Positions 22,609 to 31,849 of a stretch of DNA of 34,924 bases are shown here, piece by piece. Origin of the DNA: Veillonellaceae bacterium (GTDB lineage Bacteria > Bacillota > Negativicutes > JAAYSF01); contig JAAYSF010000015.1 of NCBI GenBank assembly GCA_012523975.1, forward strand, positions 1 through 34,924, given 5' to 3'. Position 1 is the first letter of the stretch. The number at the start of each line of letters is the position of its first letter. The notes under the pieces were generated by a model. It had not been told where the DNA came from. It saw nothing but the letters and a program-made list of their open reading frames with translations, and did not search any database. The position numbers were made by a program, and so were the translations under genes.

Positions 22609-22637
22609 TGAAACACGGGGACAGGGACATTGTTTTA
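22609..22637 (+). repeat. REP-like 29-nt element, copy 3, left flank of RAYT
   Basis: TGAAACACGGGGACAGGGAC followed by ATTGTTTTA, 40 nt before the start of the RAYT gene. It faces copy 4 in inverted orientation. Confidence 0.85.
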
Positions 22638-22677
22638 CCAAAAGAGAGATGATATATTATTTTTAGAGGTGAGGACT

Positions 22678-23439
22678 GTGGCAAGAAAACCGAGGAAAAA
22701 AAGCAACAGTGGGGTATATCACATCATATTACGCGGAATCAATAGGCAAAGCATCTTTGAAGATGATGAGGACCGGTTAAAATTCATTAGAATCCTTACA
22801 AGATATAAGGAAATTAGTGAGTGCCGGATATTCGCTTATTGTTTGATGGATAACCATGTGCATCTTATGCTGCAAGAACTCAAAGAGCCTATTAGTTTGA
22901 TGCTTCAACGAGTCTGTTCGAGTTATGTTTCTTGGTACAATGCCAAACATGAACGATGCGGTCATTTATTCCAGGAGAGATTTAAAAGTGAGCCCGTAGA
23001 AAACGATAGTTATTTCTTAACAGTTTTGCGATATATCCACCAAAATCCAGTGAAGGCAGAAATCGTAAGAGATATTGCCGAATATCAATGGAGTAGTTAT
23101 AGTGAATATACGAAACACAGTATAATTGTTGACAAAGAATACGCTTTACGCATGTTTTCAGATAGACCAGACGAATCAGTTGAACGATTTGCACAGTTTT
23201 CAAGAGAATTGAACGCAGATTCTTGTCTTGAAATTCCAGAAACTAAAACGAAACTTAGCGATGACGACTTACGACGAATCGTTAGACATCGATTTAACAT
23301 CGATGTATCGAGGATATGCAACGAGTTGAAAGAAAATCAAAGTGAGATTTTGCGAGGAATGAAAGAGGTTGAAGGTGTTACAATTCGCCAAATAGCTCGA
23401 TTAACGGGCTTATCGACAACAAAGGTATGGAGATCATGA
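22678..23439 (+). CDS. REP-associated tyrosine transposase (RAYT, Y1/HUH family)
   Basis: A 253-residue single-strand DNA nuclease of the HUH superfamily. The start ARKPRKKSNSGVYHIILRGI (about 2-21) is typical. The HUH metal site is in MDNHVHLMLQE (about 60-70), and the nucleophile Tyr is in VLRYIHQNPVKAEIV (about 115-129). After residue 190 a helical C-terminal part ends in a likely helix-turn-helix (TIRQIARLTGLSTTKVW), common in this sub-family. The GTG at 22678 has AGAGGTGAGG upstream; a TTG at 22630 would lie in the flanking REP. The stop codon TGA at 23437-23439 is the first three bases of REP copy 4. Confidence 0.93.
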   Translation: MARKPRKKSNSGVYHIILRGINRQSIFEDDEDRLKFIRILTRYKEISECRIFAYCLMDNHVHLMLQELKEPISLMLQRVCSSYVSWYNAKHERCGHLFQERFKSEPVENDSYFLTVLRYIHQNPVKAEIVRDIAEYQWSSYSEYTKHSIIVDKEYALRMFSDRPDESVERFAQFSRELNADSCLEIPETKTKLSDDDLRRIVRHRFNIDVSRICNELKENQSEILRGMKEVEGVTIRQIARLTGLSTTKVWRS

Positions 23440-23535: not shown

Positions 23536-25188
23536 TTATCGGAAAAGTTTTTCTCGCATTTTTTCTTTAACTTTCTCGGTAACCTGTTCCTTTACCTGCT
23601 CTTTTACCTCTGCTCGTGATGTCGGTAGATTGCGTTCCTGAAGCTTTTCCATCACGCTTTGGCTAAGCTGTTCAGGATAAAAAACTCCGAAATCAGTCTT
23701 AACGACAAGTTCGCTGACTTCAGCTTCTGCCGATCCCCGCTTTATGAAACTGCCGGTTAGCGTTTTGAAAGCTATACCGTAGGCCTTGCCGTCATATATA
23801 GTGAAGCTACCTTGGATAATAGGCGCTGTAGCTGAACCGGCTGCTGTTCCTGTTAATGATAACGGGCCTTTAACATCTTTTGTTGTTAACTGGGAGCTAT
23901 CTAAGCCACTGCCGGAGATAGATAAGGCGAACTGCTCTGAATCCGGGTAAATATCGCCGTTGGCTGCAATAGTACCTCCGATTGTGGCACCATCAGCCGT
24001 TAGCAGTTTAAGCGTTTGCTGAGCATATGAGAAAGTCCCGTTAATACCGCTGATGATCATATTGTCGAATTGAAGACTGCTAAGGTTGAAGCTGCCGGCA
24101 AGCACCGGTGACAATACAGAACCGGTAACCTTACCTTGCGCTGCCAAGACTCCGCCGGCCGGAAGACCGGGCAACAGGGCTGCCGGATTGCCGGAGGGCA
24201 TTTCAACAGTAAAATCCAGTGTTTTTTCACCGTCTGCTGCTGTCAGTACATGGCCTGCCGCGGTAATAGTCTGGCCTTTATACATAGCTTGACCATTTTT
24301 AATCTGAATAGTATCGCCCTGCTTTTCGAATTGGGCGCTACCCTGTGTCAAAGCCAAAGCCCCGGCAGTATTTACACCGGAAAAGCGTCCTGCTAGCGTC
24401 TTAAGCAGTATAGTGCCTGATGTAGTATCTTTGCCGATTTTAACGGTTATTTCATCGAGATTGCCGTCGGTTAACTGAATTGGATCATCCGTAACCGTAA
24501 GTCCCAAGGCGACTAAATCCATTCCTGTTGCGGACAGCGTAATTTCTGAAGGACCTTGGGTTCCCCATTGTCCGTCCAAACTAAGTGTCGCATTATTTAA
24601 TTTGCCGGTCGCCGATAGTCCGAGCTGATTTGCCTGACGAAAATCAAGTGTGCCGGACAGCTGCTCGACAGTCTTTTCGAAAAAGTCTGATTCCAGATGA
24701 AGTGTACCGTTCTGAACTTTTACCAGCCCAGAAAAGTCAGATTGTTCGTCAGTTTTTGTCTTAAGAAGCCCATCCCAGTTCAGCTTGTTCTGACGATAGG
24801 CCAACCAAAGTTCTGGTTTGTCTACGGTTACACCTTTTATCAACTGGGGCCCAAGTTCTCCTTTCAGCAAGTTGCTCCAGCTATAATTAATCTGTACCCG
24901 CTCTATCCTGGCAAGCGTTTTGCCGCCCGTATCAAGCACCTGCACGTCTTTCGCCACCACATATCCTAATATAGACAAATCGATGCCGCCGACAATGACC
25001 TGGCCATTGACGGCCTCGCTGGCACCCGTTAGCAGCGACTGTTCAGCTTCTTGACGTACTTTATCTGCGGCGAATTGAAAGAGGATTATTCCGACTAAAA
25101 AAACTACAGCCAATATGATTAAGCCGATTTTTTTCCTGTTCCATGTGAAATGGGGTTCCGTTATTGATAGCTGCTTTTCTTCATTCAC
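23536..25188 (-). CDS. AsmA/TamB-like envelope protein
   Basis: A 550-residue protein anchored by one N-terminal helix (about 20-42, IGLIILAVVFLVGIILFQFA) with the rest outside the cytoplasm. The region after the helix (GQVIVGGIDLSILGYVVAKD, about 62-81; LARIERVQINYSWSNLLKGE, about 92-111) matches the N-terminal domain of AsmA-like proteins. Long stretches of repeated beta-strands follow (for example LSATGKLNNATLSLDGQWG), as in the lipid-transfer grooves of AsmA and TamB. The last 30 residues are a charged helix (KEQVKEQVTEKVKEKMREK). It is much shorter than TamB. A role in lipid traffic to the outer membrane is inferred. Start is GTG with AGGAGG 8 nt upstream. Confidence 0.8.
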   Translation of the reverse strand: MNEEKQLSITEPHFTWNRKKIGLIILAVVFLVGIILFQFAADKVRQEAEQSLLTGASEAVNGQVIVGGIDLSILGYVVAKDVQVLDTGGKTLARIERVQINYSWSNLLKGELGPQLIKGVTVDKPELWLAYRQNKLNWDGLLKTKTDEQSDFSGLVKVQNGTLHLESDFFEKTVEQLSGTLDFRQANQLGLSATGKLNNATLSLDGQWGTQGPSEITLSATGMDLVALGLTVTDDPIQLTDGNLDEITVKIGKDTTSGTILLKTLAGRFSGVNTAGALALTQGSAQFEKQGDTIQIKNGQAMYKGQTITAAGHVLTAADGEKTLDFTVEMPSGNPAALLPGLPAGGVLAAQGKVTGSVLSPVLAGSFNLSSLQFDNMIISGINGTFSYAQQTLKLLTADGATIGGTIAANGDIYPDSEQFALSISGSGLDSSQLTTKDVKGPLSLTGTAAGSATAPIIQGSFTIYDGKAYGIAFKTLTGSFIKRGSAEAEVSELVVKTDFGVFYPEQLSQSVMEKLQERNLPTSRAEVKEQVKEQVTEKVKEKMREKLFR

Positions 25189-25298
25189 GGTTCACGCCTC
25201 CTGCCTTTCCGCAGTGGGTAGACTGCCTCCTGCAGAATGTCCCTCTTATATTATAAAGTGTGAGCCACACCAGTACAAGACAGATGGTTATAATTCCC

Positions 25299-25332
25299 AA
25301 TATTTAAGTTTGCCTAGGTCGACTTAAATATT
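25299..25332. promoter_or_regulatory. 34-bp interrupted palindrome, possible operator
   Basis: AATATTTAAGT and ACTTAAATATT are perfect 11-bp inverted arms; the centre of symmetry falls on CCTAGG. It lies between the divergent AsmA-like and histidine kinase genes and has no T-run, so it is more likely a protein-binding site than a terminator. Confidence 0.45.
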
Positions 25333-25473
25333 TAACCCTTATTAGCGATTAGAGTCTGTTGGCCTAAGTAATTAGGACATTAAAACTAAAATGCAGATTA
25401 CAGAAATGCAGGGATTTTGTAATTTATGGCAAACTTATGCAGTATAACATGCGGGCTAATTAGGAGTGAGTTA

Positions 25474-27132
25474 ATGGAATTTTTCTATACAATAACGATT
25501 GGGGCAACAATTGGCACATTTGCTATGATAATGGCCTATTTATATCTTTACGTAATGTTCCGCGAACTCAGCATGGGCTTATGGGTAGCCAGCTGGTCGG
25601 CTCTTTTCCTACGGATTATTCTTTTTGATTCCGGCATGTTTGCATGGATAAACTCGTTATGGGGCTTTTCCATTTTTTCAATTCTATTACTATCAAGCTG
25701 CATATTATTTCTCTGGGCAGCATATCGCTTTGCCGCTAAACCAGTTAATCATCGCTGGATAATCGGTGGAATTTGTGCCTTTTTACTGAGTATAACGCTT
25801 AATTATTTAGATTTTCCGTTAGCCTATAAGCTTACGCCATTAGCTTGGTTTTGCAGTTTTGTTTTAATATGGGCCGGTGTGAGTTTCATTAAATATTTTA
25901 AAGGAGAATTCCTAAGTAATCGTATTTTGGGATCTTTATATATAATTTGGGGGCTTCATACATTTGACATGCCTTTTTTAATTGATATACCTCAATTTGC
26001 TCCGTGGGGCTATATGATCGAGGGCCTCCTGCGGTTTGGGGTTGCGCTTGCAAGTATGATGTTTTATTTAGAGCAGACACGAATAAATTTGGCCCAAAAG
26101 GAATCTCAATACCGCTTATTAGCAGAAAATGCTGTAGACGTAATATATCTTTATAAAGTCCAGCCTCAAGCCAAAGTTGAATATATCAGCCCGGCAGTAA
26201 CAGCTATAACTGGTTATCGACCGCAGGATTTTTATAATGATGCTAGCTTGCTGTCCGCTATTATTCACCCCAATGACATACCGCAGTTTGATAACTTTAT
26301 GCAGAATTCCCACCCCTCAAGCACATTGCCGCTTATGCTGCGAATAATTCGCCGGGATCAAACAGTAAGATGGGTAGAACAGAATGCAGTGCATCATTTT
26401 GATCAACTTGGTAATCTTGTATCGATCGAAGGTATTATTCGCGATGTCACAGCGCGAAAAAATTTAGAACAAAGCGTATCGCGGCTTGATAGAATGAATA
26501 TAATCGGGAAGATGGCTGCTAATGTAGCCCACGAGATCAGAAATCCGCTGACGACAGTTCGGGGCTACCTACAAATGATGGCTAATAAAAAAGATTTTGA
26601 TTCATATAAAGATAGATTTGAACTAATGATTGATGAATTGGATAGAACTAATTTGATTATTCGCGAATATTTGTCACTAGCTAAAGATAAGCTGGTTGAA
26701 CTGCAGAAAAAAGACTTGAATACCATCATTAATTCCCTGCTGCCCTTGCTAGAAGCTGATGCAATTGCTAGCAGCTCCCGTATAAAAAGAGAGTTTGGCG
26801 ATATACCACTATTGTATCTTGATGAAAATGAGATTCGTCAGCTTTTACTTAACCTTGTTCGTAATGGTTTAGAGGCGATGCCGCAAGGCGGTGACCTGCA
26901 TATTAGTACTTATCATATTGATAATGAAGTTGTCTTAGCAATTCGAGATCAAGGTGGCGGCATACCTGCGCATATCCTTGACAACCTTGGGACACCGTTC
27001 CAAACAACCAAAGAAAACGGAACCGGTTTAGGCTTGCCGGTATGCTACCGAATTGCGAGTAGGCATAATGCTACTATAGCTGTTGATACAAACAAAAGCG
27101 GAACAACTTTTTTCGTTCGGTTTAATATTTAA
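25474..27132 (+). CDS. membrane PAS-domain sensor histidine kinase
   Basis: A 552-residue kinase. The first 200 or so residues form about seven membrane helices. A PAS domain follows (RLLAENAVDVIYLYK, about 215-229; YISPAVTAITGY) with a PAC tail (RDVTARKNLEQ). HisKA contains the phosphoaccepting His in NVAHEIRNPLTTVRGYLQMM (about 349-368), and the ATPase domain has NLVRNGLEAM, DQGGGIP and GTGLGLPV. The H-box is that of sporulation-type kinases (Kin family) feeding Spo0A, which suits a spore former. No response regulator is adjacent, so it is an orphan kinase. The ATG at 25474 has AGGAG at good spacing; an upstream open extension is rejected. Confidence 0.93.
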   Translation: MEFFYTITIGATIGTFAMIMAYLYLYVMFRELSMGLWVASWSALFLRIILFDSGMFAWINSLWGFSIFSILLLSSCILFLWAAYRFAAKPVNHRWIIGGICAFLLSITLNYLDFPLAYKLTPLAWFCSFVLIWAGVSFIKYFKGEFLSNRILGSLYIIWGLHTFDMPFLIDIPQFAPWGYMIEGLLRFGVALASMMFYLEQTRINLAQKESQYRLLAENAVDVIYLYKVQPQAKVEYISPAVTAITGYRPQDFYNDASLLSAIIHPNDIPQFDNFMQNSHPSSTLPLMLRIIRRDQTVRWVEQNAVHHFDQLGNLVSIEGIIRDVTARKNLEQSVSRLDRMNIIGKMAANVAHEIRNPLTTVRGYLQMMANKKDFDSYKDRFELMIDELDRTNLIIREYLSLAKDKLVELQKKDLNTIINSLLPLLEADAIASSSRIKREFGDIPLLYLDENEIRQLLLNLVRNGLEAMPQGGDLHISTYHIDNEVVLAIRDQGGGIPAHILDNLGTPFQTTKENGTGLGLPVCYRIASRHNATIAVDTNKSGTTFFVRFNI

Positions 27133-27152
27133 AATGGGATAGTTAACCTCAA

Positions 27153-27197
27153 AATAGCTCTCATTCCTTAATTAAGGGTGAGGGCTATTATTTTTTT
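27153..27197 (+). terminator. terminator of the histidine kinase gene
   Basis: AATAGCTCTCATTCCTT pairs with AAGGGTGAGGGCTATT (G-U pairs in the plus RNA), followed by a run of seven T. Confidence 0.85.
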
Positions 27198-27324
27198 ACT
27201 AATTACAAAAAAATACAATAGTAGGGATAATTTTACAAATATCGTATTTTACATTTAAAAGGGGGTGTAAATAAATGGTTACATAAGCTGCGTTATTCGT
27301 GTTAACAAAAAGCAAAAGGAGAGG

Positions 27325-28461
27325 ATGTTCTTGGAGAAAATTCAGATTGGGATTGCGTCCACAGAGTATGAAAAAGAAGCAATTTTTCGGCTTCGATACC
27401 ATATTTATGTTGAAGAAATGTACAGGCAGCCTGTTGTAATTGACCATGGCAGCAAAATGTTATTCGACGAATTAGACAAATGGGCTTTTTTGCTGTACGC
27501 CAAAATCGGTTCCGAGATTATAGGTACTATGCGGGTTAACATCGGCTTAATTGAGCAGTTTCCCCGTGGCTTAGCCAAACTTTTATACATGGATAACTTT
27601 AAAACTTTTTGTCAAGAGAGCGGCTGCCCTTTAGTTGCGTTTAGCTCTAAATTAATGGTATCCCCGGCTTACCGGAATTCACCGGCATTGCACTTGCTTT
27701 CAGCCAAAGGGTATGAACTATATTGCAACCACCATGTTCAGTTTAACTTTGGTGGTTGCAATTTTTATTTGCTCCGCCTTTACGAGCAGTTTGGCTGTCG
27801 GCGTTTTGGCCGCAATTTTATCGATCCTGGCTATGGGATGCTAACGCCATTCGTCTTAATGGTGAATGATGCCAGCCACTTAAAAGCTGTTCGTTCACCG
27901 TTTATTCGGATAGCAAGAAAAAGAGGGATAGATGATCGAACAGCGACGGAGTGGTTCTATCAGGAATTCCCTGAGGCCGCTTCTGGAATTAATAGTCAGC
28001 TAGTTACAGAGGAAGAATTGTGGGATTTTTTATGTCAAAAATTAGGCGGGCTGCCGCAGGAAATTATACCTGCTCTAAGGGGCTTAACCGAAGTTGAAGC
28101 GAGGAGCTTTTTGTATAGTACCAGTGTTAGTGTCCACTGCTATCCTGGGGATCATTTAATCACTGCAGGGCTGATAAGTGATGAATTAAATATTTTGATG
28201 TCCGGTAGATTAATATCCTTTGATCAATCTTGCAGATCAACTAGTTTAGTTCACCCCGGCCAGCACTTCGGTAAAATCGGCTTATTTGGCCAAGCAATAC
28301 AGAACGTTAATATCAAAGCTGATACTGATTCGGATATATTAGTAGTTTCACGTCAAGCATTCACCTCATTTAGCCGTTCTAAGCCGGGTATTGCTTATAA
28401 AATTAAGCGCAACTTGTTATCAGGATCAACGGAAGCTAATTTTAGGAGGATAATAAAATGA
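27325..28461 (+). CDS. GNAT-type N-acyltransferase fused to a cyclic-nucleotide-like domain
   Basis: A 378-residue two-domain protein. Residues 1-190 resemble the acyl-amino-acid/autoinducer synthase branch of the GNAT fold: AIFRLRYHIYVEEMYR (about 19-34), DELDKWAFLLYAKIGSEIIG (about 48-67), then FSSKLMVSPAYRNSPAL. Residues about 265-375 follow the CAP_ED cNMP-binding fold (HCYPGDHLITAGLISDEL, MSGRLISF, HPGQHFGKIGLF), but the ribose-binding Glu of FGE is Lys and the phosphate-binding Arg is absent, so binding of cAMP or cGMP is doubtful. The reaction is unknown. It overlaps the next gene by ATGA. AAGGAG lies 3 nt from ATG (27325) and 9 nt from TTG (27331), so either start is possible. Confidence 0.8.
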   Translation: MFLEKIQIGIASTEYEKEAIFRLRYHIYVEEMYRQPVVIDHGSKMLFDELDKWAFLLYAKIGSEIIGTMRVNIGLIEQFPRGLAKLLYMDNFKTFCQESGCPLVAFSSKLMVSPAYRNSPALHLLSAKGYELYCNHHVQFNFGGCNFYLLRLYEQFGCRRFGRNFIDPGYGMLTPFVLMVNDASHLKAVRSPFIRIARKRGIDDRTATEWFYQEFPEAASGINSQLVTEEELWDFLCQKLGGLPQEIIPALRGLTEVEARSFLYSTSVSVHCYPGDHLITAGLISDELNILMSGRLISFDQSCRSTSLVHPGQHFGKIGLFGQAIQNVNIKADTDSDILVVSRQAFTSFSRSKPGIAYKIKRNLLSGSTEANFRRIIK

Positions 28462-30176
28462 AAAATAAATTAGAGATACTTCTTGTTAATAGTGTCGCAC
28501 CGCGTCAGCGAATTGCCTCGGATGCAGCGTTAGAAAATGGCCTGGCCATTCTTAGGACATATTTAGAGGATAAGGGCTGCTTAGTTCAAGTTGTTGACGA
28601 CCAAAGGATAGCAGCTGTTGAAGAGGGGGTGCCGCAATGGTGTCTGGATTTATTAAGAACCATGATAGATTTGCAGATGAAGCTTTATAATAAAAGACTA
28701 AAATTTTTATGGTTCATCATTATGCTACTGACTTGGCCCATTCACGCTCTATCGCTGTACTACCGAAAGGTATACACTCAGAGCAGAATTGACGACATAA
28801 TAAAAACAATTAAAGATAAGGATATTAGATTTTTGGGAGTAAAGGTTTGGTACGGAGACGCCTTTAGCTGGAGTAATTTACTGGCTTCAAAGGTGAAAGC
28901 GGCCTGTCCCGATACAATAATTGTTGCCGGTGGTCCGCATGTTAAGGTATATGGCGAAGACTTGCTTTTAAATTCTGACTTTGACCTTGCGATTATGGGG
29001 CCAGGAGAAAAAGTTTTAGAAGAAATGATCGGTTTACGCCGGCAGGTTAAAGATAAGCAAGGATTTCTGGCGGCTTTTCACAATAAATACGGTAAATCAA
29101 AACTCATTAAAACCGGTGTCTATAATGAAAATGAAAGTATCGACAGCCAATACTTCACCATTCCGCGCTATAGGACTGCTGATTTAGAAGGCAAGATATA
29201 TTTTCATACGCTCGTCGATGGATTTGGCTGCACGTGGAATCGTTGCAGTTTCTGTTCGCATACTCGTCAGGCCAGACCATATCAACCGCGTCCTGCCAGT
29301 GATATAGCGAATGAAATTGAATTGCTGTCGCAGCAGGGAATAGCGTTTTTTCGCTTTAGCAGTTCAGAAACTCCCCTTGAGCATGGCAGAAAAATTGCTG
29401 AAGAAATATTAAAAAAAGACTTAAACATTAATTTTTCCATGTTTGCCAGGGCGGTCAAAGTAACGCCGAGAGTATATGATACCTACCGCTTAATGATAAG
29501 TGCCGGACTGAGAGCTGTGTTCATCGGTGGCGAAACTGGACATGACTATATCAATGAGAAGATAATGAACAAGGGAGTTACCAAAAAGGATCTTATTGAT
29601 ACGATAAATTGTATCAAGTTAGCAGCCGATGAGGCTGGTAAAAACTGCAAAGTTGGCTTATCGCTAATCTATCCCTGTCCTGTGACTGACGGCATAACGA
29701 TTGAGGATGTCTTTCAGGAAAATATGATGCTTATAAAATCTGCAAATCCTGATACTGTTATTGTAAATCCACCGGGAGTATTCCCGAAAACTCAGTGGAT
29801 GGAAAAAGCTGATCAATATGGCTTTTCTGTTAAGCCTGATTTTGTAGCAAATTTTATGAGATATGAGTACTCAATATATAAACCTACTGAGTTGTGGAAA
29901 GATCTTGGATATTCTTTGCAGGGAATGAGCAGTGCCGATTTGTTGAAGGAAACAGGCAGACTGAGAGCCGAAGTCCTCAACCTGGGAATACCAACAGACA
30001 TTTCTGATGAATATTTAATGATGACTGAGGCAATCGGCTATACTACCAGGCAGGATTTGCTTAAATTTAAAAGCAGGTCGCTTCATGATATTATGTCGGG
30101 TAGCTCAAAGTACATGAGGGAAATTGTGGAGAAAATCAATGAACGCAGTCGGCAGATGGCAAGGAAATCAGTTTAA
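28458..30176 (+). CDS. B12-binding-type radical SAM protein
   Basis: A 572-residue protein. The first 190 residues have the B12-binding Rossmann pattern (LEILLVNSVAPRQR, about 5-18; TIIVAGGPHVKVYGEDLLL, about 154-172) without the DxHxxG motif. A hydrophobic stretch (FLWFIIMLLTWPIHALSLYY, about 76-95) interrupts it and may contact the membrane. The cluster motif GCTWNRCSFCSH (about 257-268) is CX4CX2C rather than CX3CX2C. The barrel continues through FRFSSSETPLEHGRKIAEEI (about 296-315) and FIGGETGHDYINEKIMNKGV. B12-type members often modify lipids or natural products. Its start overlaps the acyltransferase stop by 4 nt, so the two are translationally coupled and probably act together. Confidence 0.88.
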   Translation: MKNKLEILLVNSVAPRQRIASDAALENGLAILRTYLEDKGCLVQVVDDQRIAAVEEGVPQWCLDLLRTMIDLQMKLYNKRLKFLWFIIMLLTWPIHALSLYYRKVYTQSRIDDIIKTIKDKDIRFLGVKVWYGDAFSWSNLLASKVKAACPDTIIVAGGPHVKVYGEDLLLNSDFDLAIMGPGEKVLEEMIGLRRQVKDKQGFLAAFHNKYGKSKLIKTGVYNENESIDSQYFTIPRYRTADLEGKIYFHTLVDGFGCTWNRCSFCSHTRQARPYQPRPASDIANEIELLSQQGIAFFRFSSSETPLEHGRKIAEEILKKDLNINFSMFARAVKVTPRVYDTYRLMISAGLRAVFIGGETGHDYINEKIMNKGVTKKDLIDTINCIKLAADEAGKNCKVGLSLIYPCPVTDGITIEDVFQENMMLIKSANPDTVIVNPPGVFPKTQWMEKADQYGFSVKPDFVANFMRYEYSIYKPTELWKDLGYSLQGMSSADLLKETGRLRAEVLNLGIPTDISDEYLMMTEAIGYTTRQDLLKFKSRSLHDIMSGSSKYMREIVEKINERSRQMARKSV

Positions 30177-30334
30177 AGACTATATTGATTGTTAGCCGTC
30201 CGTTAACTTGCGAGTGAAAACAGATACCCATCAAGTCTATATGGCTTGACTTCTTCAAGTAAAGCCTGGCCAACATGGCACAGGATTTACAGAACGTCAT
30301 AAGCAGGTTTAAAGTTTAAATCCATAGTAAAAGT

Positions 30335-30381
30335 AAAAACGACTTCAACCTTGCATAAATGCACAGATTGAAGTCGTTTTT
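30335..30381. terminator. convergent terminator between the radical SAM gene and gdhA
   Basis: A long stem with AAAACGACTTCAA pairing with TTGAAGTCGTTTT, inner GCA/TGC helix, and flanking A- and T-runs. It begins 2 nt after the gdhA stop and can work in both directions. Confidence 0.85.
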
Positions 30382-30382
30382 A

Positions 30383-31849
<1,467 letters not shown>

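Follow-up and report, generated by a model that had tools for sequence, protein, structure and literature searches.

A FeeM/LuxI-type acyltransferase gene linked to a seven-helix sensor kinase gene in Negativicutes: a candidate N-acyl signalling module

Within 3 kb of 81 of the 82 copies of a FeeM/LuxI-type acyltransferase gene found in 300 Negativicutes genomes lies the coding sequence of a seven-helix membrane (7TM) domain that belongs to a sensor histidine kinase. The linkage between the kinase and acyltransferase genes is thus well shown. We consider the chances about even that these loci are modules in which an N-acyl signal is made by a synthase and perceived by a cognate receptor kinase, a B12-type radical SAM (rSAM) enzyme tailoring the signal in one subtype.

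Gene order and distribution

The window, that is the whole stretch of DNA analyzed, comprises 34,924 nt of the forward strand of contig JAAYSF010000015.1 (GCA_012523975.1) from a Veillonellaceae bacterium. Its relevant features are:

25474..27132, + strand: sensor histidine kinase with N-terminal seven-helix domain, PAS, HisKA and HATPase_c
25474-26088, + strand: seven-helix membrane domain of the kinase (model with 7 helices)
27260..27267, + strand: strong Shine-Dalgarno sequence AGGGGGTG before the minimal ORF
27275..27286, + strand: minimal ORF ATG GTT ACA TAA (MVT*), corresponding to the MKT*-type ORF of most homologous loci
27317..27321, + strand: Shine-Dalgarno sequence AGGAG of the acyltransferase gene; in related loci it lies under P1 of the RNA junction
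27325..28461, + strand: FeeM/LuxI-type acyltransferase with degenerate cyclic nucleotide-binding (CNB) domain, 378 aa; likely start TTG 27331
28135..28374, + strand: CNB domain, residues 271-350, canonical Glu and Arg absent
28443..28448, + strand: Shine-Dalgarno sequence AGGAGG of the rSAM gene
28458..30176, + strand: B12-binding-domain radical SAM enzyme, 572 aa, with CX4CX2C motif and a hydrophobic stretch at residues 82-102
29229..29255, + strand: CTWNRCSFC, the CX4CX2C motif, present in 19/19 aligned rSAM homologues

The initial annotation described two genes, for the acyltransferase and the rSAM enzyme, that overlap by the 4 nt ATGA, and took them for a possible two-enzyme pathway. The overlap is there (28458-28461), and the unit also reaches upstream of the acyltransferase gene to include the kinase (25474-27132) and a leader (27260-27286). 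The kinase start at ATG 25474 agrees with the start of most homologues, the ORF itself opening at 25426. For the acyltransferase, TTG 27331 is more likely to be the translation start than ATG 27325, because the AGGAG at 27317-27321 is too near the latter and because the two nearest homologues have a GTG start at the position matching the TTG.

The acyltransferase-CNB protein is present at full or near full length in 17 of 40 relatives, an 18th match covering the CNB part only. The 82 copies in the larger sample come from 44 of the 300 genomes, several copies per genome being common, and the carriers include Sporomusa, Pelosinus, Anaerospora, Propionispora and Lucifera as well as Negativicutes MAGs. 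When the neighbours of 32 copies were clustered, a histidine kinase was found to adjoin every one. The kinase lies upstream on the same strand in 69 cases and divergently in 4; in the remaining 8 the nearest 7TM domain is downstream, and 3 of these loci are flanked by kinase domains on both sides. The sole copy without a 7TM kinase (G070:C84) lies 6 nt from a contig end. An arrangement of two 7TM kinases around one synthase (kinase-acyltransferase-kinase) was seen at L046, L131 and the G055/G065 loci.

Homologues of the rSAM enzyme (at least 52% identity) number 27 in the 300 genomes, and 26 of them are encoded directly 3' of an acyltransferase gene, so that the pair is indeed syntenic elsewhere, a point on which the initial annotation had called for a check. 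As the rSAM gene is present at only 26 of 82 acyltransferase loci, and the kinase at 81, rSAM is an optional third gene, and the reading shifts from a two-enzyme pathway to a synthase and receptor kinase with optional tailoring. A modified acylated product of the acyltransferase and rSAM enzyme, as originally proposed, is still likely; what had been missed is the invariable partner, the kinase. The only rSAM homologue with no acyltransferase gene within 3 kb is G118:C39:36300-37949 (52% identity).

Kinase and rSAM are the acyltransferase's conserved neighbours. The clustered neighbours contain no conserved response regulator, and none adjoins the kinase in the window; nor do they contain a conserved transporter or resistance gene. 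No LuxR partner was seen among them, which may set these loci apart from LuxI systems: here the membrane kinase would be responsible for perception. Relatives of the acyltransferase-CNB protein outside Negativicutes have no adjoining kinase of the 7TM type, which we count against the synthase-receptor reading.

The acyltransferase, its CNB domain and the modifying enzymes

Residues 19-179 of the acyltransferase match Pfam FeeM (PF21926, 1e-9; 38.8 bits, above the gathering score of 27) and Acetyltransf_5. The best structural match of its model (pLDDT 93) is FeeM itself (PDB 2g0b; Z 18.1, rmsd 2.2 Å, 171 residues aligned over residues 3-190), at 12% identity; unlike FeeM, the window protein has a C-terminal CNB domain, a partner 7TM kinase and an optional rSAM enzyme. 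Further structural matches were GNAT enzymes and the LuxI-type AHL synthases, which share the fold at Z about 15 (LasI 15.5, RpaI 15.5, BjaI 15.3, TofI near 15). When the catalytic domain was compared by sequence with solved structures, only weak GNAT/AHL-synthase matches came up.

The 53 Negativicutes acyltransferases compared share R24, E31, D48, D51, R70 and R117 without exception, and Y28 is conserved; position 109 is Lys in these 53 sequences and Arg in relatives. The order and spacing of R24, D48, D51 and R70 may be LuxI-like; for the LuxI Trp, and for the Glu of the later Glu/Arg pair, no clear equivalent is seen. A dead active site had been named as something that would speak against the earlier proposal; as far as sequence allows a judgment, the site is not obviously dead, because the residues listed above are conserved.

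The C-terminal part (residues 271-350) matches Pfam cNMP_binding (PF00027, 8e-9). In its motif, HFGKIGL...AIQNVN, Lys takes the place of the Glu of FGE and there is no phosphate-binding Arg, as in the original description of a degenerate CAP_ED-like domain joined to a LuxI/FeeM-like fold. The canonical Glu is kept in 6 and the Arg in at most 1 of 53 Negativicutes sequences, compared with 31 and 30 of 36 relatives from outside the class; judging from these sequences, the loss in Negativicutes is derived. The replacing residues (Ala or other at the Glu site, His or Gln at the Arg site) are themselves conserved, which argues for an altered domain over a decaying one. Binding of cAMP or cGMP is unlikely, in line with the earlier suggestion that the domain senses something else. 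Foldseek places the CNB-homology domain of the EAG channel, which does not bind cyclic nucleotides, among its nearest structures. Mycobacterial Pat likewise has CNB and a GNAT-fold acyltransferase in one chain, but the window protein differs in its reversed domain order, its other GNAT subfamily and the absence of the cyclic-nucleotide residues.

The second protein is a B12-type radical SAM enzyme, as had been annotated, with B12-binding (PF02310) and Radical_SAM (PF04055) matches both over cut-off. All 19 aligned homologues share CX4CX2C, the lack of DxHxxG and the hydrophobic stretch at residues 82-102. The best NCBIfam matches, PhpK (TIGR04479), TIGR04072 and HpnJ, have a like domain layout, but the window enzyme differs in its CX4CX2C motif and scores far lower, at 53 bits against curated cut-offs of 360-600. 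It is an orphan B12 radical SAM enzyme, for which we predict an acyl substrate.

Other enzymes take this place in other lineages. Synechococcus has a SAM methyltransferase gene downstream of acyltransferase-CNB (L164, L166), as do MAGs of Flavobacteriales (L162) and Desulfobulbaceae (L170); the spirochaete MAG L161 has the methyltransferase fused to acyltransferase-CNB, at residues 420-690. In filamentous cyanobacteria (L159, L160, L163, L165), acyltransferase-CNB is followed by a haem-oxygenase-like (Haem_oxygenas_2) enzyme. The recurrence of different modifying enzymes at the same acyltransferase supports a small molecule as its probable product. The fused spirochaete gene (L161:4902-6977) encodes acyltransferase, a CNB domain with intact FGE motif and SAM methyltransferase together.

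The leader: minimal ORF and RNA junction

In homologous loci, the gap between kinase and acyltransferase genes is mostly 180-350 nt long and contains a strong Shine-Dalgarno sequence followed by a tiny ORF; the corresponding region of the window is 27133-27324, and a further example is found at L122:4842-4938. The minimal ORF has at most 4 sense codons in 34 of 45 loci and exactly 3 in 28 of 45 (typically MKT*), with about 28% of minimal ORFs expected to have at most 4 in Markov-shuffled gaps. TAA, TAG and TGA all occur as its stops.

Leaders of loci without rSAM can form a three-way junction, in which the P1 strand TCTCTCC pairs with the acyltransferase Shine-Dalgarno sequence, P2 covers the Shine-Dalgarno sequence of the minimal ORF, and P3 its start codon. 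No consensus fold emerged when 35 long leaders were first aligned; the consensus came from 12 related leaders, trimmed and picked after inspection of single folds. A covariance model built from these 12 recovers leaders outside its training set, and in 40 whole genomes 14 of its 15 matches fall in the kinase-acyltransferase gap. In a set of 27 sequences, both partners have changed in 14 of the 24 pairs, and covariation is 0.268, compared with 0.177 (sd 0.010) for shuffled and at most 0.139 for slid controls, in an alignment that was fitted to the structure and so favours the junction. The significant matches are all outside rSAM loci. In the window, the leader has no junction fold (z +0.24), the covariance model does not find it, and Rfam has no relevant match over gathering score at positions 24000-31000.

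On a wider alignment fitted to the covariance model (A8), RNAalifold instead paired the TCTCC strand with the Shine-Dalgarno sequence of the minimal ORF. Its pairings with the two Shine-Dalgarno sequences may alternate, an idea that calls for caution because TCTCC can pair with any Shine-Dalgarno sequence. Plausibly, the junction is opened by ribosomes that occupy the minimal ORF, which would permit translation of the synthase.

The seven-helix kinase and readings of the module

The 7TM domain is modelled as seven helices (pLDDT 90) and has no convincing Pfam match. Its invariant residues in 33 copies include W41 and R187; the latter sits in the middle of helix 7, and we conjecture that it would bind a carboxylate. 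The domain stays with the acyltransferase when the rest of the kinase changes: at two loci (L056, L058) the PAS domain is absent and another kinase core is attached, and at a third (L139) the core is also exchanged. Over 50 pairs, evolutionary distances of the acyltransferase correlate with those of the 7TM domain (r 0.89) and of the kinase core (0.86), with partial correlations of 0.53 for the 7TM domain given the core and 0.30 for the core given the 7TM domain, joint inheritance accounting for much of these correlations. A kinship to GPCRs or rhodopsins is not claimed (Z 12.9 or less, below the caution level for helical bundles), and identity as a KinD-type sporulation kinase was set aside, with a KinD score under cut-off and a higher one for AtoS.

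Together, our data suggest the following model, in which the substrate and product, the binding of a ligand to the 7TM domain, and the output are inferred. With acyl-ACP or acyl-CoA as donor, the FeeM/LuxI-type domain would acylate the amine of an amino acid or a comparable small molecule with a fatty acyl group. The hydrophobic N-acyl product would be perceived by the seven-helix domain of the neighbouring kinase, from which phosphate would pass to a regulator encoded elsewhere, be it Spo0A or a different one. Where present, the B12 radical SAM enzyme, probably membrane-associated, would tailor this compound, methylation being the likeliest reaction, and the signal would thereby acquire a different identity. 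The degenerate CNB domain would no longer read cAMP or cGMP and may be a structural or dimer domain, or a sensor of another ligand. Putative Spo0A boxes upstream of kinase or acyltransferase genes showed no clear excess over shuffles, and PHROGs gave no match.

The model has precedents. In Vibrio, acyl-signal synthase genes adjoin those of multi-helix membrane histidine kinases (LuxM/LuxN, AinS/AinR, CqsA/CqsS), and the linkage typical of such receptor-kinase quorum sensing is what 81 of 82 loci display. The parts differ: LuxM and CqsA are unrelated to the window acyltransferase, and, unlike the Vibrio receptors, the kinases here are of a simple type, with a 7TM domain for which Pfam has no model. 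Parallel signalling channels would lead one to expect several paralogous kinase-acyltransferase pairs per genome, and these are seen.

Several other readings have to be weighed. Adjacency of the two genes by inherited order alone, with no joint function, fits the fact that every kinase-acyltransferase pairing falls in one class, but adjacency is kept though the orientation varies (upstream, downstream or divergent) and the 7TM domain is retained when the kinase core is swapped; we regard this reading as very improbable. Hardly more credit is due to a Pat-like regulated protein acyltransferase, whose CNB domain would control the acylation of some protein, the kinase being one candidate. Mycobacterial Pat does combine CNB and GNAT, and the NCBIfam model for Pat hits relatives in their CNB part; against this stand the domain order, a catalytic domain closest to FeeM and AHL synthases, the lost cyclic-nucleotide residues and the methyltransferase fusion, which indicates a small-molecule product. 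Also improbable, if a little less so, is that the product of the pair is an N-acyl antibiotic or surfactant and that the kinase senses the cell's own product or membrane stress to bring about protection. FeeM makes long-chain N-acyl amino acids that have antibiotic activity, and rSAM or methyltransferase tailoring, common in natural-product clusters, recurs at the acyltransferase; the loci nevertheless have no conserved transporter or resistance gene.

A role in membrane homeostasis deserves more weight, although we think it unlikely. Here the acyltransferase would make an N-acyl amino acid lipid of ornithine-lipid or lyso-lipid type, and the kinase would monitor the membrane and control sporulation or envelope genes, with no signal passing between cells. 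The acyltransferase has weak similarity to OlsB-type enzymes, the rSAM enzyme contains its hydrophobic stretch, and the association with diderm spore-formers is strong: SpoIVA is present in 40 of 44 acyltransferase-carrying genomes and in 11 of 256 without the acyltransferase, a statistic inflated by shared ancestry. Moreover, 7TM domains occur without a synthase, in 22 of 106 Negativicutes copies and in 23 further genomes of a phylum sample, whose examined copies have kinase, GGDEF-EAL or GGDEF-HD outputs; this also speaks against the synthase-receptor reading, since the domain may respond to a broader stimulus, for example the membrane. On the other hand, an OlsA-like second acyltransferase is not conserved among the clustered neighbours, and a bulk lipid accounts less well than specific ligand channels for multiple paralogous pairs with stable pairing.

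The synthase-receptor reading can be widened: diderm Firmicutes that form spores would then have a new class of cell-to-cell signalling, with FeeM/LuxI-type N-acyl signals, cognate 7TM kinases, diversification by B12 rSAM enzymes and, where there is no rSAM, gating of the synthase by a three-codon ORF and RNA junction. This is a tentative proposal, about which we are more doubtful than confident. Firmicutes signals are known mainly as peptides, and our search, which covered a collection of open-access full texts but not subscription papers, found no description of such an acyl synthase/receptor kinase system. If true, Sporomusa, Pelosinus and relatives would have an undescribed signalling route, possibly linked to sporulation and with several parallel channels in some cells. 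The module offers specific, testable synthase/receptor pairs, an orphan B12 rSAM enzyme and a minimal-ORF leader.

In other Firmicutes, the 7TM domain is fused to PAS-GGDEF-EAL or PAS-GGDEF-HD (L210:6156-9236, L213:7061-9070). Beyond the module, the window encodes an IS200-like transposase with a C-terminal helix-turn-helix-like stretch (22630-23439) and, on the opposite strand and adjoining the kinase gene, a DUF748-like (AsmA-type) protein (23536-25188), a homologue of which is also encoded close to the module in L048.
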